Shown here piece by piece: positions 15,361-58,594 of a stretch of 64,000 nucleotides of DNA. How positions within the stretch are numbered: the stretch's first letter is position 1; the number at the start of each line of letters is the position of its first letter. The stretch lies in contig CALVOZ010000003.1 in the NCBI GenBank assembly GCA_944350495.1, positions 1 to 64,000 on the forward strand, read 5' to 3'. Made by a program: the position numbers and the translations under genes. A model generated the notes under the pieces. It saw only the letters and a program-made list of their open reading frames with translations, was not told the DNA's origin and made no database searches. Source of the DNA: an uncultured Bacilli bacterium. GTDB lineage: Bacteria > Bacillota_I > Bacilli_A > RF39 > UBA660.

Positions 15361-16680
15361 ATGGCTAAAAAGTTTGTTGAAGAATTTGGTGTAGATTTAA
15401 CTGCTGATGAATTAGTTGATATTAATGATTATGAAGCATTTGAAAATAAAGAATTACTTGATTCTTTAAGGAATAAAATTATTCAAGGCTTAATTGATAG
15501 AAATCTAGAAGAATTATCTATATTTGCAATTCGTGAAGAAGTAGATAAAGTTGTTGAAGGATACGATATTTCAATTATTGAAAGAAGCTTTCTTTATAAT
15601 TTAATTGAAAATGAAGTAAATGGTTATGGACCAATTACTGAATTACTTAATGATCCAAATGTTACAGAAATTATGGTTAATGGACGTGATGAAGTTTACG
15701 TTGAAATAGATGGTAAAATCATACGTGACTATACTATTTCATTTATTAATGATTCACATATTGTTCGCACTATTCAAAAATTAATTCAACCTTTAGGACG
15801 TACAATTGATACGGCTAATCCTATGGTTGACGCAAGACTGGAAGATGGTTCAAGATTAAATGCTGTTTTAGAACCACTATCTTTAAAAGGTCCAATATTA
15901 ACTATTCGTAAATTTAAAAAAGAGTTGGCTAATATTGAAGATTTTTTAAGAAATGGTGCTTTAACTCCATATATGGCAAGATTTTTAGAGGCTTGCGTTA
16001 AAGCAAAATTAAACATAATTATCTGCGGTGGTACTGGTAGTGGTAAAACCACTTTATTAAACATTTTATCATCATTTATTAATACTGATGAACGTATTAT
16101 TACTATTGAAGATGCTGCAGAATTACAATTAAAACAAGAACATGTAATTCCATTGGAGACAAGAAACGCTAATTATGAAGGTGAAGGAGCTATTACTATT
16201 CGTGATTTAGTTATTAATTCACTTCGTATGCGTCCAGATCGGATTATTGTTGGTGAAGTTAGAGGACAAGAAGCGTTTGACATGATTCAAGCTATGAATA
16301 CGGGACATGATGGATCGATGACTACAATGCATGCAAATGGTTGTCCTGATGCTTTAAATCGTTTGGAAACAATGATTTTAATGGCCGGTATGGAAATTCC
16401 TGTTAAAGCTTTAAGAGAATATATTAAAGATGCGATTAATATCGTTGTTAATATTGAAAGATTAAGTGATGGTAAACGAAGAATTACTAGCATAAGTGAA
16501 GTTTTGGATATTAAAGATGGAGAAATTGTTCTAAGAGAAATTTTCGCTTTTGAAAAGCAAGGCTTAAATGAAAGTGGAGATGTAATGGGAGAATTTATAT
16601 TAAGATCAGATATTCCAAATGTTTATAAAAAGATGAAAGCAATGGGAATTAATGATTTACAAGATATATTTGGAGAATGA
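15361..16680 (+). CDS. tadA: TadA/CpaF pilus assembly ATPase
   Basis: The 439-residue secretion ATPase of the VirB11/PulE superfamily powers Flp pilus extension and, in Caulobacter, also retraction. Walker A GGTGSGKTT lies at residues 223-231, the Asp box in RIITIEDAAELQL, Walker B around DRIIVGEVRGQEAF, and the His box in GSMTTMHAN. The N-terminal domain starts with a predicted helical region and the FIxNPxVTEIMVNG-like segment (PNVTEIMVNG). The length is normal. It ends with TGA and leads into a TadB homologue 13 bases later. Confidence 0.94.
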   Translation: MAKKFVEEFGVDLTADELVDINDYEAFENKELLDSLRNKIIQGLIDRNLEELSIFAIREEVDKVVEGYDISIIERSFLYNLIENEVNGYGPITELLNDPNVTEIMVNGRDEVYVEIDGKIIRDYTISFINDSHIVRTIQKLIQPLGRTIDTANPMVDARLEDGSRLNAVLEPLSLKGPILTIRKFKKELANIEDFLRNGALTPYMARFLEACVKAKLNIIICGGTGSGKTTLLNILSSFINTDERIITIEDAAELQLKQEHVIPLETRNANYEGEGAITIRDLVINSLRMRPDRIIVGEVRGQEAFDMIQAMNTGHDGSMTTMHANGCPDALNRLETMILMAGMEIPVKALREYIKDAINIVVNIERLSDGKRRITSISEVLDIKDGEIVLREIFAFEKQGLNESGDVMGEFILRSDIPNVYKKMKAMGINDLQDIFGE

Positions 16681-18894: not shown

Positions 18895-20214
18895 ATGAAA
18901 TATTATTTAATAGGAATAAAAGGGGCCGGTATGAGTGCTTTAGCGCTTCTACTATCAGATTTAGGTTATGAAGTTACTGGTTATGATGATGCAAGCGATC
19001 ATCGCTTTACTGAAGATAGTTTAACTGAACGTGGAATTACTATTTATAGTGGGCCTAATGATGCTTTAGATAAAGATACTATTGTTGTTAGATCACCTGC
19101 TATTCGCGATGAACATCCTGAAATGCAAAAAGTGTTTCAAATGGATTTAAGAAATTATTATTATCATGAAATGTTAGGCAAATTATCTAAAAAATATGAT
19201 ACAATTTGTGTTTCTGGTTGTCATGGTAAAACAACTACCACTGCGATGCTTTCTCATATTATGAAAGAATTATGTGGATGCAGTTACATTATTGGTGATG
19301 GTCGTGGATATGCTGATAAGGATGCTAAAAGGCTTATTTTAGAGTCTTGTGAATATCGTAGACATTTTTTGAATTATGATCCAGAATACGTAATTATTAC
19401 AAATATTGAATTAGATCATACTGATTATTATAAAAATATTGATGATATGATTGATGCATATCAAGAATTTGCTAATAAAGCTGATAAAATGGCTATTATT
19501 TGTGGTGACGACCCTTATACTCATGTCTTAGAAGTTAGTAAGCCTGTATATTATTATGGTGTAGGTGCTGATAATGATATACAAGCACGAAATATTGAAT
19601 ATCGCAATGATGGCACAAGTTTTGATGTCTTTATTGAAGACGAATATGTTGGACATTTTGATTTACCTTTATTTGGTAAGCATATGTTGTTAAATGCTTT
19701 AGCAGCCATTGCAGTATGTCATTATGAACGGTTAGATTCTAAAGAAGTATCTAAATTATTAAAGACTTTTAAAGGTGCTGAGAGACGTTTTAAAGAAACT
19801 TTCATTGGGAACAATGTATTAATTGATGATTATGCTCATCATCCAACTGAAGTTAAGGTAACCATTAAAGCTGCTCGTCAAAAATATCCCGATAAAAAAA
19901 TTATTGCTGTGTTTAAAGCTCACACATTTTCAAGAGTTCAAGAATTTGCTGATGAATTTGCAAGCGCTTTAAATTTAGCGGATAAAGCCTTTGTTATGGA
20001 TATTAATTATGACCGTGAAAAACCTGAAGAATATCCAGGTATTAATGCCTATACAATTATTAATAAATTAGATAATGGTGATTATATTGAGTTAGGTATG
20101 GAAGAAAAATTGATGGAATTTGATAATGCAGCAATATTATTCATGAGTAGTAAAGAAATTTATCTATTAGAGGATAATTATCTAAAAATGAAAAAAGAAA
20201 GACTGAATTCCTAA
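18895..20214 (+). CDS. murC: UDP-N-acetylmuramate--L-alanine ligase
   Basis: The 439-residue Mur ligase adds L-Ala to UDP-MurNAc. It has the nucleotide-sugar motif IGIKGAGMSALA at the N-terminus, the ATP-binding CHGKTTTT at residues 109-116, and SCEYRRHFLNYDPEYVIITN with NIELDHTDYY, which closely follows Bacillus MurC and excludes MurD, E and F. Length is normal. It is separated from murD and murL (52 kb) and from the ftsW cluster. GGGGAG precedes the ATG. Its position right behind tadC, without a clear terminator between them, is unusual for a core wall gene. Confidence 0.93.
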   Translation: MKYYLIGIKGAGMSALALLLSDLGYEVTGYDDASDHRFTEDSLTERGITIYSGPNDALDKDTIVVRSPAIRDEHPEMQKVFQMDLRNYYYHEMLGKLSKKYDTICVSGCHGKTTTTAMLSHIMKELCGCSYIIGDGRGYADKDAKRLILESCEYRRHFLNYDPEYVIITNIELDHTDYYKNIDDMIDAYQEFANKADKMAIICGDDPYTHVLEVSKPVYYYGVGADNDIQARNIEYRNDGTSFDVFIEDEYVGHFDLPLFGKHMLLNALAAIAVCHYERLDSKEVSKLLKTFKGAERRFKETFIGNNVLIDDYAHHPTEVKVTIKAARQKYPDKKIIAVFKAHTFSRVQEFADEFASALNLADKAFVMDINYDREKPEEYPGINAYTIINKLDNGDYIELGMEEKLMEFDNAAILFMSSKEIYLLEDNYLKMKKERLNS

Positions 20215-29039: not shown

Positions 29040-30548
29040 ATGACAAAATATTATTCAAAATGGTTAGATGATATTAAAGATATTCGCGATGTAGAGTTAA
29101 TAAAATATAATGAAAAGATTAGTAAATCAGGATTACCTTTAAAAGTTGTTCAAGATAAAATGTATATAGACACATCAAATGTAACAACAATGGTAATTGG
29201 TTCAGCAGGGAGTGGTAAAACCCAAGCAACGGTTTTACCAATGTTAAATTTGATTAAGAATGCTGGGGAATCAGTATTGTTATGTGATACAAATGGTGAA
29301 ATATATAAGCATAGTGTGAATGTTTTTAAAAGCGCTGGTTATAAAACTATAGTAATAGATTTTAAAAATTCATATTTAGGTGATTATTGGAATCCGCTGT
29401 TTTATCCATATCAACTTTATAAAAATGGTAAAAAAGATGAAACAATTAAATTGTTAAACGATTTATCTAGAACTTTATTGCACGAGGAAAGTACTAGTGA
29501 TCCATTTTGGGAGATAACTGCTAGTGATTATTTTACAGGATTATGTTTAGGATTGTTTCAATATGGTAAAGAAGATGAAATAAATATTAATAGTATTGGA
29601 AAAATGCTAAATGATGGTAATGAAAAAATTGGAATATCAACATACGCTAAAGAATTCTTTAAAGGATTAGATGATCAAGAGGCTATGTATTCAGCATCAA
29701 CTACTCTTAATGCTCCAAACGAAACTAGAGGAAGCATCTTAGCAGTTTTAAGACAAAAGCTTAATGTCTATTTAGCTCGTGAATCACTAAATCAAATGTT
29801 ATCAAAGACAAACTTTGATATTCAAGATATTCGTAATAAATATATAATTTATTTAGTCTTACCGGAAAATAATAAATCAATTTATCCTTTAGTAAATGCT
29901 TTAATTGAACAAGTTTATGATGTTTTAAGTAACTCTAATTATGATTTTAGATTTAATTATATTTTAGATGATTTTGATTCATTAAGTCCTATTAATAACT
30001 TAGATGTAATGGTTTCATCAGCAAGAAGTAAGAATATTAAAATAACTTTATTATGCCGCAGTTATCGTAGTTTATATGATAAATATGGGAAACAGTTAGC
30101 AGAAGTAATTATTAATTCTATTGGCGAAATATTGTATTTAATTACTGATGACCGTGAAACTGCTGAAAAAATTTCTTTACAATGTGGTAATAAGGATGAT
30201 CACCAAAAATTAATTAGTGCTGATGAGTTGCTTAGACTATCAACTTGGGAAGCAATAATGCTAAAAACTAGATATATGCCAGTTCGTTTAAAATTAACAC
30301 CTAATTATAAAATTGAGTGGAATAATGTCGAAGAAGAATCTTCTATTCCAAGTCGTGAAAAAATTAATATTAATGTATTTGATATGAAAAAATTTGTTAA
30401 ATACTCTGAAAGTGATATTGATGATTTAATTAAAAAAATAGATTCTAAGATTGAAGAATTAGATTCCAATGAATCTAAAACTGTTATTGAAAAGCCAATT
30501 AAGAAGATAGAAATATTGAAAGATAAAGTAATTATTTATTATGAATAA
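29040..30548 (+). CDS. VirD4/TraG-like type IV coupling ATPase (orphan)
   Basis: The 502-residue protein has the type IV coupling layout: Walker A GSAGSGKTQ (from residue 54), SVLLCDTNGEIYKHS, the WNPLFYP segment, DPFWEITASDYFTGLCLGLFQYG, and Walker B YILDDFDS near 310 with VSSARSKNIKITLLCRSYRSL after it. This RecA-like fold normally feeds DNA or protein into a type IV secretion or conjugation channel. There are no N-terminal membrane helices, unlike VirD4 and TraG, and no relaxase, VirB4 or channel gene is nearby. It could be a soluble TcpA-like or DNA-translocating motor. AAGGAGG precedes the ATG and a terminator follows. Confidence 0.75.
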   Translation: MTKYYSKWLDDIKDIRDVELIKYNEKISKSGLPLKVVQDKMYIDTSNVTTMVIGSAGSGKTQATVLPMLNLIKNAGESVLLCDTNGEIYKHSVNVFKSAGYKTIVIDFKNSYLGDYWNPLFYPYQLYKNGKKDETIKLLNDLSRTLLHEESTSDPFWEITASDYFTGLCLGLFQYGKEDEININSIGKMLNDGNEKIGISTYAKEFFKGLDDQEAMYSASTTLNAPNETRGSILAVLRQKLNVYLARESLNQMLSKTNFDIQDIRNKYIIYLVLPENNKSIYPLVNALIEQVYDVLSNSNYDFRFNYILDDFDSLSPINNLDVMVSSARSKNIKITLLCRSYRSLYDKYGKQLAEVIINSIGEILYLITDDRETAEKISLQCGNKDDHQKLISADELLRLSTWEAIMLKTRYMPVRLKLTPNYKIEWNNVEEESSIPSREKININVFDMKKFVKYSESDIDDLIKKIDSKIEELDSNESKTVIEKPIKKIEILKDKVIIYYE

Positions 30549-51057: not shown

Positions 51058-51420
51058 ATGAGTACAGCAGATGAAAAGGAGACATTTAATAGAAATAAGG
51101 ATATTCAAGAAATGGTAAATTTCTTTTTAAGCGAAAATCATATGCCAACAATAACAGAAAGAATGGCAGCATCTGGTAAGCGTGAAGTAATAGGTGTTTT
51201 AACAGCGGATCATAAAATTGTTTTACAACAAATTATTAGACAGGAATTTCCAGACATTGATTCACGTATTAGAATTGCTAGAGGAGCTAGCGATGGTAGA
51301 GGACAAATTCTTGGAGCGCTTTCAGCAACTGAAGTTGAATTAACTAATGAGTTATTAGAAAACTTTAGTGTTCAACGAGAATTTGATCAACAAGAATTAG
51401 TACAAGCTAGAACATATTAA
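51058..51420 (+). CDS. Small hypothetical soluble protein
   Basis: The 120-residue protein has no membrane helix or signal peptide. It contains a predicted alternating helix-strand pattern with HKIVLQQIIRQEFPDIDSRIRIARGASDGRGQILGALS, which could be a small alpha/beta domain. No family is recognised. It has its own promoter and a perfect terminator, so it is expressed alone, upstream of the murL-murD unit. The strong promoter suggests it matters more than its size implies. Confidence 0.65.
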   Translation: MSTADEKETFNRNKDIQEMVNFFLSENHMPTITERMAASGKREVIGVLTADHKIVLQQIIRQEFPDIDSRIRIARGASDGRGQILGALSATEVELTNELLENFSVQREFDQQELVQARTY

Positions 51421-51447
51421 AAAATAGACTATAGTCTATTTTTTTTG
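51419..51447 (+). terminator. Intrinsic terminator
   Basis: AAATAGAC pairs with GTCTATTT around TATA, with T8 after. Confidence 0.85.
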
Positions 51448-51469
51448 ATATAATGATAGTGGTGAAATT

Positions 51470-52813
51470 ATGAATAAAGAAAAATTTTTAAATTTTAGAA
51501 AAGAATATCCTAACTTTTATTATCGTAAATTTCAAGTAATTGATAATAAAAATAATTTTGAATTAATTTTTACATTTGAAATTCCAGGATTAGCTGTGTT
51601 TGAACCTAAAACCACTATTGACAAGAAATTTATAGTTAATAGTGATTATAATTATATTAGTTACATGGCTTTTAATATTGGTTTAGTTGAACTTATAAGT
51701 TATTGGAAATGCACTTGTTCACCTAACGTTATTATTGAAGCTGGTAATTTAGATTCTTACCAAATTGAATGGTTTAGAAAATTGTATTTTTATGGCTTAG
51801 GAGAATTTTTTTACGTTAATGGAATAGATACAAATATTAAAGAATTTATGAATATAACATCAGTTGGTGAAAAGATTAATATTCCTGCTCTTGAATATCA
51901 TGGTGCTGGCAATTTAATTGCTATCGGTGGTGGCAAGGACTCTGTAGTTAGTCTTGAACTCCTTAAAGATATGGATAACACATGTTTTATGGTTAACCCT
52001 AAAGTACCAGGAATTGAATGCGTTAAGGCAGCTGGTTATGGCGATTATTTAACAGTTAAAAGAACTATTGATCATAATTTATTAGAACTTAATAAACAAG
52101 GATTTTTAAATGGTCATACTCCCTTTAGTGCAATTTTAGCTTTTGTTTCATATTTATGTGCTTATCTTTTAAATAAGAAATATATTGTTTTATCTAATGA
52201 AGGAAGTGCTAATGAAGCAACCGTTATCGGTACCAAAATTAATCATCAATATTCTAAAACATATGAATTTGAAAATGATTTTAATGAATATGCATATCAA
52301 TATTTAAATATAAATATTAAATATTTCAGTTTTTTAAGATGCTTAAGTGAATTACAAATAGCAATGTTGTTTGCTAATTATAAAAAATATCACAAATTAT
52401 TTAAAAGCTGCAACGTTGGTAGTAAGCAAATTCCGTGGGTATGGTGTGGCAATTGTCCAAAATGTTTATTTGTCTATATTATTTTAAGCCCTTTCTTAAC
52501 TAAAAAAGAAATGATTGAAATATTTGGTAACGATTTGTATGAAAGAGAAGAGTTGCTACATACGTTTATTGAACTTTTAGGTTATGCTGAAACTAAGCCA
52601 TTTGAATGTGTAGGAACATACGGGGAAGTGAGATATGCAGTTAGTTTATGTATAAATAAATATAAGGATAACTTACCATTTTTATTACAATATTATAAGA
52701 ATAATTATCCTCTTGCTTTAGAACATAGATATGAAACAGATTATAATGAACTAAATAATTTGGATGATGATTTTGTAAAAATTATCAAAGAGGAGTTGAA
52801 AAAATATGTTTAA
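51470..52813 (+). CDS. murL: UDP-MurNAc-L-Ala-L-Glu epimerase MurL-like
   Basis: The 447-residue protein carries a PP-loop-like IAIGGGKDSVVSLELL (glycines at residues 153-155, KDS after), NGHTPFSAILAF, EGSANEATVIG, and a late zinc-type CGNCPKC. This matches MurL, which uses ATP to epimerise the terminal L-Glu of UDP-MurNAc-L-Ala-L-Glu to D-Glu. The next gene, murD, begins inside its last codons (8-base overlap), the arrangement described for the MurD2-MurL pathway that bypasses glutamate racemase. MurL is best known from Xanthomonas; its presence in a Gram-positive lineage is uncommon. Confidence 0.85.
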   Translation: MNKEKFLNFRKEYPNFYYRKFQVIDNKNNFELIFTFEIPGLAVFEPKTTIDKKFIVNSDYNYISYMAFNIGLVELISYWKCTCSPNVIIEAGNLDSYQIEWFRKLYFYGLGEFFYVNGIDTNIKEFMNITSVGEKINIPALEYHGAGNLIAIGGGKDSVVSLELLKDMDNTCFMVNPKVPGIECVKAAGYGDYLTVKRTIDHNLLELNKQGFLNGHTPFSAILAFVSYLCAYLLNKKYIVLSNEGSANEATVIGTKINHQYSKTYEFENDFNEYAYQYLNINIKYFSFLRCLSELQIAMLFANYKKYHKLFKSCNVGSKQIPWVWCGNCPKCLFVYIILSPFLTKKEMIEIFGNDLYEREELLHTFIELLGYAETKPFECVGTYGEVRYAVSLCINKYKDNLPFLLQYYKNNYPLALEHRYETDYNELNNLDDDFVKIIKEELKKYV

Positions 52814-54158
52814 ACAAATTATAGATTATTTATCAGGCAAAAAAATAGCTATTTTAGGATTTGGAATGGAAGGAAAATCAACATATAATTTTATCCGTAA
52901 ATATAGTGATATGCCTTTAACGATAATTGATAAAAATAATGTCTATGAAACTAATAAAGAACTACTTAGTAGTGATAATAAATTAAACTATATTTTTGGT
53001 GATGATTATCTTCATAAACTTGATGGTTTTGACTTAATTATTAAAAGCCCAGGGGTTATTACAAAAGATATAGATACTACTAATATTCCTTTCACTTCAC
53101 AGTTAGAATTACTATTAATGGTTAATCGTGAATATGTTATTGGAATTACGGCGACAAAAGGAAAAAGTACAACAACTTCTTTAACTTCTGCAGTTTTAAA
53201 AGCTAATGGAATTGATGCTAAATTAGTTGGCAATATTGGAGTCCCAATCTTTGACGAAATCGAAAGTATGAATGAAGATACTTATATGGTCGTTGAGATG
53301 TCTTCGTCACAACTAGAATTTGTTACATATTCACCCCACATAGCCGCCATTTTAAATTTATATGAAGATCATTTGGATCATTGTGGAACAATTGAACATT
53401 ACCACGCCAATAAATTACAAATATTCAAACATCAGACTAATTCTGACTATGCAATATATTGCAGTGATATTGAACCACTTAATAGCTATATTGATGATTC
53501 TTATCAAGGAATAAAATATCGTGTTCAATTTAATGATCAAAACATTGATTCAAGGACAACCTATATTAAAAATAATCAAGTTTATTTAAATGGAAAACCT
53601 TTATTTAATACTGATACGGAACTACATTTATTAGGTGAACACAATCTTAGAAATATAATGGTCGTTCTAACTATTTCGGAAATAATGCATTTAGATTTAA
53701 ATAAAACGATTGAGGCAATTAAGAATTTTAAACCTTTAGAGCATAGAATCGAATTAGTTGGAACTTATAATGACATTATTTATTATAATGATTCAATTGC
53801 GACTATCCCTAATGCGACAATTTCAGCCATAAAAGCTCTAAAGGATGTCGATACTTTAATCTTTGGAGGTATGGATAGAGGCATTGACTATCAGCCTTTA
53901 ATTGATTTCTTAGATACTGGTATTGTTAGAAATTTAATTTGTATGCCAACTACTGGCTATAAAATAGGTAAAGAAATTAAAAATTTAAATGTTTTCAAAT
54001 ATAATGTTGAAACATTGGAAGAAGCAGTATCTAAAGCTCGTGAAATAACTAGTAAAAATAAAATATGTTTACTTAGTCCAGCGGCTGCTAGTTATGAGTA
54101 TTTTAAGAACTTCGAGGAAAAGGGAAGAGCCTATAAAAATTTAGTAAAAAATATATAA
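52806..54158 (+). CDS. murD: UDP-MurNAc-L-Ala glutamate ligase (MurD or MurD2)
   Basis: The 450-residue Mur ligase adds Glu to UDP-MurNAc-L-Ala. The N-terminal GKKIAILGFGMEGKSTYNFI, ATP loop GITATKGKSTTT (about 113-124), MSSSQLEF, LYEDHLDHCGT and ALKDVDTLIFGGMDRGIDY are MurD hallmarks. In the MurD2-MurL route this ligase would add L-Glu rather than D-Glu; the coupled murL makes this likely, but substrate preference cannot be read from the sequence. The MurD glutamate-binding residues should be compared. It ends about 60 bases before ireB. Confidence 0.9.
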   Translation: MFKQIIDYLSGKKIAILGFGMEGKSTYNFIRKYSDMPLTIIDKNNVYETNKELLSSDNKLNYIFGDDYLHKLDGFDLIIKSPGVITKDIDTTNIPFTSQLELLLMVNREYVIGITATKGKSTTTSLTSAVLKANGIDAKLVGNIGVPIFDEIESMNEDTYMVVEMSSSQLEFVTYSPHIAAILNLYEDHLDHCGTIEHYHANKLQIFKHQTNSDYAIYCSDIEPLNSYIDDSYQGIKYRVQFNDQNIDSRTTYIKNNQVYLNGKPLFNTDTELHLLGEHNLRNIMVVLTISEIMHLDLNKTIEAIKNFKPLEHRIELVGTYNDIIYYNDSIATIPNATISAIKALKDVDTLIFGGMDRGIDYQPLIDFLDTGIVRNLICMPTTGYKIGKEIKNLNVFKYNVETLEEAVSKAREITSKNKICLLSPAAASYEYFKNFEEKGRAYKNLVKNI

Positions 54159-54220
54159 AACATTTACAAAAACTTTGTTATATGTTACAATTTAATTGTA
54201 TTCATAGAAGAGGTGATATG

Positions 54221-54463
54221 ATGGACGAAACTAAAGTTTATGAAACATCTGAATTTCAGCATGAGATGATTTCACAAGTCATTAAAGAAGTATCACAAAT
54301 ACTAGAGGAAAGAGGATATAACCCAATTAATCAAATAGTTGGTTATTTGATAAGTGGGGATCCAGGTTATATTTCGAGTGCTAAAGAAGCAAGAAGTAAA
54401 ATTACTAAATATGAAAGGTCTAAAGTCTTAGAGGTTGTCTTGAAAGACTTCTTAAATAAATGA
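54221..54463 (+). CDS. ireB: IreB family regulatory phosphoprotein (DUF965)
   Basis: The ATG at 54221 has AGAGGTG upstream; the adjacent ATG at 54218 is too close to it. The 80-residue protein contains ILEERGYNPINQIVGYLISGDPGYISSAKEARSKI, the hallmark of the IreB/YrzL family, which is phosphorylated at Thr by the PASTA kinase (IreK) and affects antibiotic tolerance in Enterococcus. The stop overlaps the ruvX start (ATGA). The order ireB-ruvX-DUF1292-mltG-methyltransferase matches the Bacillus yrzL-yrrK-yrzB-yrrL-yrrM cluster. Confidence 0.92.
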   Translation: MDETKVYETSEFQHEMISQVIKEVSQILEERGYNPINQIVGYLISGDPGYISSAKEARSKITKYERSKVLEVVLKDFLNK

Positions 54464-54909
54464 GATATATTGGCCTTGATTTAGGAACTAGAACACTTGG
54501 CATATCAATAAGTGACTTAACTAGAACTATTGCGACTAGTTATGCTACTTTAAAATTTCCAGATTCTGACTATAATTCATTAATTGACCCGTTGAAGAAA
54601 ATAGTTGATGAATTTGAAGTTGGAAAGATAGTTTTGGGATTGCCTAAGAATATGAATAATAGTATAGGTGATAGAGCACGTACTACCCTAGAATTCAAAG
54701 CTTTATTAGAAGAGAAATTAAAGTTAGAAGTGATTATGCAAGACGAAAGATTATCTACTGTAGAAGCGACTAACTATTTGCTAGAAGCAGATTTGTCTAG
54801 GAAAAAAAGAAAAACTAAAGTAGATGCGGTAGCTGCTAATATCATTCTTCAAACTTATTTAGATAGAGAAAGAGAGGAAATTTTACATGGAAGAAAAAAT
54901 GACTTTTAA
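54460..54909 (+). CDS. ruvX: Putative pre-16S rRNA nuclease (YqgF/RuvX)
   Basis: The 149-residue protein opens with RYIGLDLGTRTLGISISD, the RNase H-like signature of the YqgF family, and has GKIVLGLPKNMNNSIG and VIMQDERLSTVEA, the conserved DERxST motif. It probably completes 5' processing of 16S rRNA and was once thought to resolve Holliday junctions. It is coupled to ireB by ATGA overlap and overlaps the next gene by 23 bases. Length is normal (135-150). Confidence 0.92.
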   Translation: MRYIGLDLGTRTLGISISDLTRTIATSYATLKFPDSDYNSLIDPLKKIVDEFEVGKIVLGLPKNMNNSIGDRARTTLEFKALLEEKLKLEVIMQDERLSTVEATNYLLEADLSRKKRKTKVDAVAANIILQTYLDREREEILHGRKNDF

Positions 54910-55177
54910 AGTTGTAAATGACGAAGGAAAAGAAGTAGAATGTGAAGTATTATTTACATTTGAATCAGATGAGACTAAGAAAAATTATATAGTTTATACT
55001 GATAATACGTTAGATGAAGAAGGAAATACTAAAGTTTATGCTTCAATCTATAATCCTGATGAAGATGAAACTAAGTTATTACCAATTGAAACAGACAAAG
55101 AATGGAAAATTATTGAAACAATTCTTGAAGAATTACAAAATGAAATTCAAGGTAATGAGGCAAGTACAGAAGAGTAA
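54887..55177 (+). CDS. DUF1292 family protein (YrzB)
   Basis: The 96-residue acidic protein contains EVLFTFESDETKKNYIVYTDNTLDEEGNTKVYASIYNPDEDETKLLPIETDKEWKIIE, matching DUF1292, a family found beside ruvX and mltG in Bacillota. The function is unknown. The start overlaps the end of ruvX by 23 bases. A terminator hairpin overlaps its stop, yet mltG follows at once, so the terminator may only reduce downstream expression. Confidence 0.88.
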   Translation: MEEKMTFKVVNDEGKEVECEVLFTFESDETKKNYIVYTDNTLDEEGNTKVYASIYNPDEDETKLLPIETDKEWKIIETILEELQNEIQGNEASTEE

Positions 55178-55192
55178 TTTTTTACTCTTTTT
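55170..55192 (+). terminator. Terminator-like hairpin between DUF1292 and mltG
   Basis: AAGAGTAA pairs with TTACTCTT around TTTT, followed by T. It sits in an otherwise continuous operon. Confidence 0.6.
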
Positions 55193-55209
55193 TATTTAGT
55201 AGGTGATTT

Positions 55210-56304
55210 ATGAAGGTAGAAACAGTTATTAAGATTATAGTTAGCATTATTGCCGGACTACTTATTATTGGAATTATTGGAATTCTTATTATGTATAGTA
55301 GTGGTATTAAAGCATATGATGAAAATTCTAAAGAAATGGTTCAAATAGAAGTTCCAAGTGGTAGTACTTATTATTCCATAGCAAGTATATTGAGTGAAAA
55401 TAAATTAATTAGATCAAAACTAGTTTATAAAATGTATTTAAAATTAAATCCCCCAAAATCAGAACTTAAAGCAGGTTTTTATGAGTTAAGCCCTAATATG
55501 GATTTACCAACGATTGTATCTATATTAAGTGGTGGTGGAGAATCATCAAATCCACATGAAATAACAATTACTTTTAAAGAGGGATTAAATATGCGTGCGA
55601 TTGCGTCATTAATTGCTGAAAAAACTAATAATACAGAAGAAGATGTGTTTAATTTACTGGAAGATAAAAAATATTTACAGGAAATAATTGATGAGTATTG
55701 GTTTATTGATGAATCAATATTAAATAAGGACATTTATTATCCTTTAGAAGGATATTTATTTCCTAACACATATAATTTTAAAAATAAAGATGTAACTGTT
55801 AAAGAAATATTTAAAGTAATGTTAGATGAAATGGATAAACAATTAGACCCATATAAAGAAGGAATTGCTAATAGTGATTATTCAATTCATGAATTATTAA
55901 CACTTGCTAGTATTGTTGAATTAGAAGCAAAGAGTGCAGATGACAGAAAAGAAGTGGCTGGTGTATTCTATAACAGAATTGATATTAATATGTCACTAGG
56001 TAGTGATGTTACGACTTATTATGCGGCTAAATTGGATATGGGTGAAAGGGACTTACTTCAATCTGAACTTGATGATATAAATGCATATAATACGCGTCCT
56101 ATCTCTGTTGGAGGAAAACTTCCAGTTGGCCCAATTTGTAACCCATCTATTTCGGCTATTGAAGCCGCTATTTATCCTAAAACTACAACTAATTATTATT
56201 TTGTTGCTGATAAAAATGGTAAAGTTTATTTTACTAAAACAAATGCTGAGCACGAAAATAAGATAAAGGAATTACAAGAGGCAGGATTATGGTTCACATA
56301 TTAA
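55210..56304 (+). CDS. mltG: Endolytic murein transglycosylase MltG
   Basis: The 364-residue protein has an N-terminal membrane helix (about 8-29), a LysM-like strand region (VQIEVPSGSTYYSIASIL), and the YceG domain with YPLEGYLFPNTYNF, ASIVELEA (catalytic Glu in ELEA), NRIDINMSLGSDVTTYYA and RPISVGGKLPVGPICNPS. It cleaves nascent glycan strands at the membrane and sets their length. It belongs to the ireB-ruvX-DUF1292 operon and overlaps the methyltransferase gene by 16 bases. Confidence 0.94.
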   Translation: MKVETVIKIIVSIIAGLLIIGIIGILIMYSSGIKAYDENSKEMVQIEVPSGSTYYSIASILSENKLIRSKLVYKMYLKLNPPKSELKAGFYELSPNMDLPTIVSILSGGGESSNPHEITITFKEGLNMRAIASLIAEKTNNTEEDVFNLLEDKKYLQEIIDEYWFIDESILNKDIYYPLEGYLFPNTYNFKNKDVTVKEIFKVMLDEMDKQLDPYKEGIANSDYSIHELLTLASIVELEAKSADDRKEVAGVFYNRIDINMSLGSDVTTYYAAKLDMGERDLLQSELDDINAYNTRPISVGGKLPVGPICNPSISAIEAAIYPKTTTNYYFVADKNGKVYFTKTNAEHENKIKELQEAGLWFTY

Positions 56305-56873
56305 ATATTGAGGAAGACGCCAGAAAAAGAAATATTCCAGTTATGTTAGATGATGGGATGGAATTTATCCTTGAATATATAAAAAATAATAATGTGAAGT
56401 CTATTTTAGAAATTGGATCGGCTGTTGGTTACTCAGCAATTAGATTTGCAAGTGTTAGCGATGATATTAAAGTAACTACAATTGAAAAAAATAAAGATTT
56501 GTATGATGAAGCTTTAAATAATATCAGTAATTTTAAATTAAATGATAGAATAAATATTATTTTAGGCGATGCTTTAGAAGTTGAAATTACTGGAAGTTAC
56601 GATCTAATATTTATTGATGCTGCTAAAAGTCAATATACTAAATTTTTTGAAAAGTATAAAACTTTATTAGTACATGATGGTTGTATTATTACTGATAATT
56701 TAGCATTTCATGGACTTGTCGATAATCCAAGTCTAACTAAAAATAGAAATACGCGGCAATTAGTTGGTAAAATTTCTAGATATATTGAGTTTTTAAAAAA
56801 CAACAAAGAATTTAAAACTGAATTTTATAATCGTGGAGATGGTATTTCCGTTAGTAAAAGAATAGCTGATTAG
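56289..56873 (+). CDS. O-methyltransferase family 3 (YrrM-like)
   Basis: The 194-residue SAM-dependent protein contains SILEIGSAVGYSAIRFA (motif I), KVTTIEKNKDLYDEA (motif II) and YDLIFIDAAKSQYTKFFEKY, with Asp residues that bind the metal and catechol-like substrate, then GCIITDNL. In Bacillota this YrrM position in the mltG operon is linked to 5-hydroxyuridine methylation of tRNA (TrmR). It overlaps mltG by 16 bases, so translation is coupled. A terminator follows. Confidence 0.88.
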   Translation: MVHILNIEEDARKRNIPVMLDDGMEFILEYIKNNNVKSILEIGSAVGYSAIRFASVSDDIKVTTIEKNKDLYDEALNNISNFKLNDRINIILGDALEVEITGSYDLIFIDAAKSQYTKFFEKYKTLLVHDGCIITDNLAFHGLVDNPSLTKNRNTRQLVGKISRYIEFLKNNKEFKTEFYNRGDGISVSKRIAD

Positions 56874-56886
56874 ACTATTCTTTTTA
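56856..56886 (+). terminator. Intrinsic terminator
   Basis: AAAAGAATAG pairs with CTATTCTTTT around a nine-base loop containing the methyltransferase stop. Confidence 0.75.
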
Positions 56887-56947
56887 ACTAGACTATTTAA
56901 TATTTTTTTGTTATAATTAATTGGTATTTGAAAAAGAAAGGAGATTT

Positions 56948-58594
56948 ATGAGTAAGATTAAAATGTTTGCCCTAGGTGGGTTAAACGAAATTGGTAAAAA
57001 TATGTATGTCGTTGAAATCGACAATGATATTTTTGTATTTGAAGCGGGTTTAAAATATTCAGATGATCGTTCTTTGGGTATTGATTATATTTTACCCAAT
57101 TATGATTATTTAAAAGAAAATAAAGATAGAATTGTTGGTATATTTATTACTCATGGGCATGATGAACAAATGGGTGCTTTGGCTGATGTTTTAGAAGATT
57201 TGCCAGATGTTAATGTTTATGCTACTGCTTTTACATTAGAAGTTATAAAACAAGATTTAGAAGATGCGGGAATTAAAAGTGCTAAATTAAATGAATTAGC
57301 AATACATAAAAAAGTTACTTTTGGTAAAAATAGTATTTTTCCAGTGCGAGTATCGCACTCTATTCCAGATTCAGTTATGTATGTTCTTTATACTGAAGAT
57401 GGAGCAATTGTATTTACGGGTAATTATGTATTTGATCCATCAATGCCAGGGGCATTTAATGCTGACATTGGTAAAATTGCATATGTTGGTAAACAGGGAG
57501 TTTTATGTTTATTAAATGAATCCATTTATGCACCTAAAAGAGGATTTACTTCTCCTAACCATAAAGCATATGCAATTATTAGAGAAACTATCAATAAAAA
57601 TCCTGGCCGTATTTTATTTAATTTGATGCCAGCACAAGTTTATCGTATTCAAGAATTATTTAATGAAGTTATGAAAACAGATCGAAATGTTGTTATTATG
57701 GGAAAAAAACTAGAGACAATGATTTTTAAAGCTATTGATTTAGGATATGTAAACTTTGATAAATCAAGAATTAAACCAATTCGTCATGTTAATGATGAAG
57801 GAATTATTGTTATTGTATCTAGTGAAAGAGAAGCACCATATTACAATATGAAGAGAATTATTAAAGGATATGATAAATTTATTACACTAACTGAAGAAGA
57901 CACGGTTGTATTTGCATCACCAATTTATGATAATATCGAAGTAACATCTACTCAAATATTTGATGATATTGCAAAAATAGGAGCTAACTTAGTTATTCTA
58001 TCTAAGAAACAATTTAAATCTCCACATGCATCTTCAGAAGATATTATGATGATGATTAATATGTTACGTCCTAAGTATTATTTCCCTGTTATAGGTGAAT
58101 ATCGCGAACAAGTAGAAAATGCTTCTTTAGCACGCATTATGGGAATGAGCGAAGAAAATATTTTCTTAAAATTAAACGGTGATGTAGTTAGAATTGAAAA
58201 CGGTAATTATATTGAAGATAATGAAAAAATTAAAGTTGATGAAATTTTAATTGACGGTAAACAATCAGGTGATATTGGTGATCTTGTATTAAAAGATCGC
58301 GAATTACTAGCTGATAATGGAATTGTTATCGTTACTACAACCCTTGATAAAGCAACTAAGAAAATATTAGCTGGGCCTGAAATTCTAACTAGAGGATTTA
58401 TTTATGTAAAAGAAAATAGCGATTTAATTAAAGAAGCTGAAAAAATATCTTTAGAAGTTGTAAATGAATGTCTTAATCCTAATTATGTTGACTTCAATAA
58501 AGTTAAGAATGGTATTAGAGAACGTTTAGGTAAATATTTATATCAACAAACATCATCTAAACCGATGATTATTGTTGTCGTACAAGAAGTATAA
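56948..58594 (+). CDS. RNase J-family protein with degenerate metal site
   Basis: The ATG at 56948 has AAAGGAG upstream; the TTG-started extension from 56921 has none. The 548-residue protein matches RNase J along its length: MFALGGLNEIGKNMYVVE, the beta-lactamase and beta-CASP core, and the C-terminal domain with GDIGDLVLKDRELLADNGIVIV. The metal-binding residues are changed: HGHEDH is HGHDEQ (residues 69-74), the GD of motif III is GN (Asn159), and PVHGEYR is PVIGEYR (Ile382). It is probably a non-catalytic partner like RNase J2, with an active RNase J1 elsewhere in the genome. Confidence 0.88.
   Translation: MSKIKMFALGGLNEIGKNMYVVEIDNDIFVFEAGLKYSDDRSLGIDYILPNYDYLKENKDRIVGIFITHGHDEQMGALADVLEDLPDVNVYATAFTLEVIKQDLEDAGIKSAKLNELAIHKKVTFGKNSIFPVRVSHSIPDSVMYVLYTEDGAIVFTGNYVFDPSMPGAFNADIGKIAYVGKQGVLCLLNESIYAPKRGFTSPNHKAYAIIRETINKNPGRILFNLMPAQVYRIQELFNEVMKTDRNVVIMGKKLETMIFKAIDLGYVNFDKSRIKPIRHVNDEGIIVIVSSEREAPYYNMKRIIKGYDKFITLTEEDTVVFASPIYDNIEVTSTQIFDDIAKIGANLVILSKKQFKSPHASSEDIMMMINMLRPKYYFPVIGEYREQVENASLARIMGMSEENIFLKLNGDVVRIENGNYIEDNEKIKVDEILIDGKQSGDIGDLVLKDRELLADNGIVIVTTTLDKATKKILAGPEILTRGFIYVKENSDLIKEAEKISLEVVNECLNPNYVDFNKVKNGIRERLGKYLYQQTSSKPMIIVVVQEV

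Follow-up and report, generated by a model that had tools for sequence, protein, structure and literature searches.

How does a gut bacterium of the Bacilli obtain the D-glutamate (D-Glu) of its peptidoglycan? The question is raised by two adjacent genes, murL and murD, in the 64,000-nucleotide stretch of DNA analysed here ("the window"; positions 1 to 64,000 of contig CALVOZ010000003.1, assembly GCA_944350495.1, from an uncultured bacterium of family UBA660). A sequence-only reading of the window had proposed that the pair, overlapping by 8 bases, forms a racemase-free route to D-Glu in which a MurD2-type ligase adds L-Glu and MurL epimerises it, that this would explain a missing glutamate racemase, and that such an operon is unusual in low-GC Gram-positives. 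The MurL/MurD2 pathway is known from Xanthomonas oryzae (XOO_1319/XOO_1320; Feng et al. 2017, reviewed in PMC8788868); to date, proof of it is limited to a few Proteobacteria and actinobacteria.

We conclude, with a probability of about 90%, that murL and murD2 are a cassette with coupled translation, which supplies peptidoglycan D-Glu without free D-Glu, L-Glu being attached first and then flipped in place. In such a route L-Glu would be joined to the precursor, MurL would use ATP to activate the alpha-carboxylate of this Glu as an adenylate, adenylation would make its alpha proton labile, and the attached L-Glu would then be inverted in place to D-Glu. The putative activities, ligation of L-Glu by the window MurD and epimerisation by MurL, are assigned by analogy with the Xanthomonas enzymology.

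D-Glu supply in the source genome

Profile searches of the source genome (1.33 Mb, 9 contigs, 94% complete) returned no match to PF01177 (Asp/Glu racemase), TIGR00067 (MurI), PF01063 (D-amino-acid transaminase family) or PF01678 (DapF); as a control, each of these profiles matches in 9 to 13 of 14 reference genomes. The supposedly missing glutamate racemase is thus indeed not found, nor is a D-amino acid transaminase, the other enzyme that the sequence-only reading had wanted looked for, and the intact murI that it had named as its refutation was not found. Its 8-base overlap is confirmed as well, both genes being intact open reading frames (ORFs) with ATG starts on the same strand (447 and 450 amino acids; Table 1). 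DapF, which can serve as Glu racemase in Chlamydia (PMC5885031), was rejected for this role because the source genome has none. An alanine racemase (Alr, a single gene at G000:C2:63376-64008) and MurC are present, and a wall pathway that needs D-Glu therefore exists in this genome.

Mutual exclusion of MurL and MurI

The occurrence of MurL and MurI was compared in three genome sets, which overlap slightly in that a few genomes occur in more than one: 98 genomes of the window's family, each from a different genus; 50 genomes reached via named MurL loci; and 342 genomes of Clostridia, the class of Ruminococcus flavefaciens. MurI was called above the curated TIGR00067 cut-off in the first two sets and at E<=1e-10 in the third. 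Exclusion is complete in all three. The family sample contains 18 genomes with MurL and 34 with MurI, the Clostridia sample 15 and 309, respectively, and neither contains a genome with both, while MurI exceeds the cut-off in 0 of the 50 named-locus genomes, nine of which have weak matches to the MurI profile (23 to 44 bits) below it.

Three family genomes considered as carriers of both genes (G003, G015 and G024) were rejected because their PF01177 matches lie far under the MurI cut-off: TIGR00067 has no match in G003 and reaches 25.7 bits in G015 and 26.9 bits in G024, and the PF01177 proteins of G003 and G015 start like aspartate racemases (MKTIGIIGGMS). A nineteenth MurL match in the family, in G042, was rejected as noise (E=2e-4, 11 stops).

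Other traces of variation were seen in the family. In G026 the MurI gene is broken by stop codons (G026:C1:13278-13975; TIGR00067 pieces, best E=2e-19) and a canonical MurD is kept. Alanine racemase (PF01168) occurs in 45 of the 98 genomes and is absent from seven of the 18 with MurL, so that D-Ala supply also looks variable.

MurD2 signature of the partner MurD

The window MurD belongs to the MurD family, its TIGR01087 score lying above the 212-bit cut-off (Table 1). The alignment comprised 98 MurL-linked MurDs (from family members, from named Bacillota and Bacteroidota, from Xanthomonas sacchari and from an unverified "phage" scaffold), the family's 32 canonical MurDs and two MurDs of solved structure. 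In the column of E. coli Lys319, Ile occurs in 92 and Leu in 6 of the MurL-linked enzymes, whereas the canonical family MurDs have Lys (27) or Glu (5) and never Ile or Leu; Ile is found in the window MurD and in the X. sacchari MurD, which adjoins an annotated murL. Asn322 is present in 32/32 canonical and 0/98 MurL-linked sequences, and at position 416 most of the latter have Tyr (Phe in X. sacchari), whereas nearly all canonical family MurDs have Trp. According to earlier enzymology, E. coli MurD became able to use L-Glu through K319T, and K330T slightly raised L-Glu acceptance by Streptococcus mutans MurD (PMC8788868). That Lys319 is replaced in all MurL-linked MurDs speaks more strongly for L-Glu use than any other sequence evidence, and we propose this replacement as the putative defining feature of MurD2.

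The other published positions are less informative. Arg at E. coli K348 (Arg358 of X. oryzae MurD2) is present in the window MurD and is not diagnostic alone because Gram-positive canonical MurDs carry Arg too. Glu at E. coli D182 (Glu197 of X. oryzae MurD2) was rejected as a MurD2 marker, since the 98 MurL-linked MurDs have Glu in 72 and Asp in 26 cases; E197 is the specificity residue of one enzyme and not a proven family definition.

In a tree built from all columns, MurL-linked and canonical MurDs fall on two sides of one branch (Shimodaira–Hasegawa-like approximate likelihood ratio test, SH-aLRT, 95), and the split is kept when the diagnostic columns are removed (SH-aLRT 88, rising to 100 if the long Xanthomonas branch is left out). 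In agreement with the sequence-only reading, the active site of the window MurD is of the MurD2 type, and the protein clusters with MurDs linked to MurL, that of Xanthomonas included.

Four family genomes with MurL (G060, G030, G012 and G082; loci L095, L063, L093 and L094) keep a second MurD that scores as canonical (380-412 bits), and no MurI was found in them. In L095, L093 and L094, residue 319 of the second MurD is Lys or Glu. These genomes perhaps represent an intermediate stage.

A QueC/QatC-like fold predicted for MurL

The window MurL matches NF041275 (MurL, Xanthomonadales) over residues 72-393. Published reviews describe MurL as an epimerase without known domains. A single-sequence search of solved structures gave nothing credible, and a MurL profile search found only the PP-loop of TtuA, at the GGGKDS motif (E=6.7e-4). 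An AlphaFold model of the window MurL, built with 63 relatives, has a mean predicted local distance difference test (pLDDT) score of 93.9. VIA-align places the model closest to QatC (Z 18.9 over 320 residues), QueC (Z 13.7 over 198 residues; structures 2pg3, Z 13.7, and 3bl5, Z 12.9) and Cap9 (Z 12.2), with the rest of the list well below, and Foldseek agrees on QatC. The predicted likeness extends to the PP-loop, in which MurL has GGGKDS for SGGxDS, and to a cluster of four Cys in the order of QueC.

MurL differs from QueC in the spacing of these Cys (C-x11-C-x2-C-x2-C versus C-x8-CxxCxxC; PMC13329287), and from QueC, QatC and Cap9 in its substrate and outcome; none of the 64 MurLs matches the QueC Pfam family (PF06508) at E<=1. 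MurL would accordingly be a QueC/QatC-like PP-loop enzyme, as judged from a confident model, with a similar fold and not of the same family. QueC uses ATP to activate a carboxylic acid (PMC13279940), and X. oryzae MurL needs ATP and forms AMP, for which alpha-carboxylate adenylation has been proposed (PMC8788868). Given the predicted fold, the carboxylate activation by QueC and the formation of AMP, this proposal gains a physical basis; going by fold and motif, the PP-loop would carry out the adenylation. A survey of the QueC family (PMC13329287) makes no mention of "epimerase", "Mur" or "peptidoglycan".

Comparison with known D-Glu pathways

The window and Xanthomonas have the same two genes in the same order, overlapping in both (seen in X. 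sacchari), and no enzyme that forms D-Glu. The window MurL has 45 of 53 invariant MurL residues in common with that of X. sacchari, and the MurD2s agree in Ile at K319 and Arg at K348. The systems differ in that MurL identity is ~28% (435 aligned residues), that Asp stands in place of Glu at position 182 of the window MurD, and that the host is a small-genome gut Bacillota lineage outside the published distribution. Compared with MurI and canonical MurD, the end product is the same, D-Glu at position 2 of the stem peptide, whereas MurI is absent here, the MurD signature is another one, and the D-configuration would arise after ligation, at the cost of extra ATP.

Distribution of the cassette

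Two MurL peptide patterns, scanned against 84,980 species genomes, gave at least 581 confirmed relatives. The best 80 of these loci are mostly from Bacillota (Bacilli and Clostridia), with a few Bacteroidales records, and include Ruminococcus flavefaciens, Pseudobutyrivibrio, Lachnospiraceae and Eubacterium sp.; the nearest named relatives among the matches listed are rumen and rabbit-gut Bacilli metagenome-assembled genomes. A MurD gene lies downstream on the same strand for 18/18 family MurL genes and for 80/80 of the best named loci, and the pairing is therefore not due to chance. The two genes overlap or nearly touch in nearly all loci, with a few gaps of up to ~180 nucleotides and two of ~1.1 kb (G090 and L104). 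In G090 an ORF of 278 amino acids is inserted between murL and murD2 (L080:6376-7212), and the gap in L104 has the same size.

In the literature, MurL is listed for Gamma- and Alphaproteobacteria and for rare actinobacteria; a fungus, cyanobacteria and an amoeba have homologues of low similarity (PMC8788868; PMC5808125). No report of the MurL pathway in Bacillota was found in the literature searched, which mostly lacks subscription papers. Beyond the source genome, the gene pair takes the place of murI in many Bacillota of the gut and in some Bacteroidota. Of the initial proposal, the racemase-free route is supported by the missing racemase, the MurD2-type site and the exclusion of MurI, and the supposed rarity in low-GC Gram-positives falls: with at least 581 MurL loci, the best 80 of which are mostly from Bacillota, it is right only relative to the literature searched.

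Two loci stand apart. L178 (MT836755.1), an unverified 8.9-kb "Bacteriophage sp." scaffold from human faeces, carries murL-murD2 and probably represents bacterial DNA within a phage collection. L177, on plasmid pPaSha1 of Pseudonocardia alni, encodes a MurL homologue without a MurD neighbour and with GGGRDS for GGGKDS, which may have another substrate.

Alternative explanations

Several observations weigh against a cassette that makes D-Glu on the attached precursor. The window MurL scores 258 bits against NF041275, compared with an equivalog cut-off of 700 that was set for Xanthomonadales. Because residue 182 of the window MurD is Asp and E197D altered the stereospecificity of X. oryzae MurD2 (PMC8788868), the window MurD might accept both Glu isomers, although this Asp is shared by 26 of the 98 MurL-linked MurDs. 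The Fisher p-values for the exclusion of MurL and MurI (1.8e-4 in the family sample, 1.9e-5 among family genomes with MurD over the cut-off and 1.8e-17 in the Clostridia sample) overstate independence, since related genomes share ancestry, and are indicative only. Moreover, 22 of the 98 family genomes (G001, G005, G007, G010, G026, G029, G035, G036, G038, G041 and 12 others) have MurD but no match to MurI, MurL, PF01177, PF01063 or PF01678. Another source of D-Glu or scavenging therefore exists in the lineage, and loss of murI alone neither proves the case nor requires MurL.

These 22 relatives would fit an ordinary MurD that ligates D-Glu scavenged from the gut, with MurL as an accessory or a different epimerase, and so would Asp at 182, the residue of E. 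coli MurD. We nevertheless consider this explanation improbable: Lys319 is replaced by Ile or Leu and Asn322 is lost in all MurL-linked and no canonical family MurDs, the adjacency of the two genes is universal in the loci examined, and MurL and MurI never occur together, even in the larger Clostridia genomes, where MurI is otherwise so common (309/342). MurL might also racemise free L-Glu or act on another peptide, with MurD taking the resulting D-Glu. Homologues without a neighbouring MurD, such as that on the Pseudonocardia plasmid, indicate that the MurL scaffold may have other substrates; the window MurL, however, keeps most X. sacchari invariants and is coupled to a ligase with the MurD2 signature, which makes this explanation highly improbable for the window. 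As the source genome is 94% complete and in 9 contigs, murI could in principle sit in the missing 6%, making the cassette redundant, but we give almost no credence to this because MurI is found in none of the MurL-carrying genomes of the three sets (0/18, 0/50 and 0/15).

For the coupled murL-murD2 cassette, a wider account seems to us rather probable, though less firmly so than the route itself: a widespread, independently carried cassette would have replaced MurI many times in gut Bacillota and some Bacteroidota, MurL would be a QueC/QatC-like PP-loop enzyme acting by alpha-carboxyl adenylation, and the loss of Lys319 would be a natural switch to L-Glu.

Layout of the locus

The cassette stands alone between an upstream gene of 120 codons and unknown family (51058-51420) and a downstream block of IreB, RuvX, DUF1292, MltG and RNase J genes (54182-58594). 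A fixed chromosomal site was rejected, the IreB-RuvX-MltG neighbourhood being common to only 1/16 relatives. The murC gene is in the window at 18895-20214, far from murD, and near it lies a gene for a TadA/VirB11-like ATPase (15361-16680); a VirD4-like conjugation protein of the CD1115 family is encoded at 29040-30548. Promoter-like sites in the region are no more numerous than in shuffled sequence by consensus scan, and a terminator scan of the region did no better than on shuffles.

Table 1. Features of the murL-murD2 locus (positions in the window).
Feature	Position	Strand	Evidence
murL	51470..52813	+	NF041275 E=1.4e-76; 45/53 invariants as X. sacchari MurL; AlphaFold pLDDT 93.9; VIA-align Z 18.9 QatC, 13.7 QueC
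murD2	52806..54158	+	TIGR01087 329 bits; Ile at E. coli K319, Arg at K348, Tyr at L416; clusters with MurL-linked MurDs
GAGGAG, probable murD2 ribosome-binding site within the 3' end of murL	52789..52794 (about)	+	Sequence; 11 nucleotides before murD ATG
PP-loop motif GGGKDS, MurL residues 153-158, counterpart of SGGxDS	51926..51943	+	Invariant in 64 MurLs; profile match to TtuA PP-loop E=6.7e-4
C314, C326, C329 and C332 of MurL (C-x11-C-x2-C-x2-C), predicted probable zinc site	52409..52465	+	Invariant in 64 MurLs and Xanthomonas
Possible murL-murD2 promoter, TAGACT-18-TATAAT, extended -10	51425..51454	+	Consensus scan only

Implications

MurI counts as a nearly universal target for antibiotics. 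The loci described here suggest that many gut Bacillota, including the culturable Ruminococcus flavefaciens and Pseudobutyrivibrio, would resist MurI inhibitors and be sensitive to inhibitors of MurL or MurD2. The single-residue signature at position 319 lets MurD2 be called from sequence, and the QueC-like model offers a testable structural basis for the MurL epimerase.
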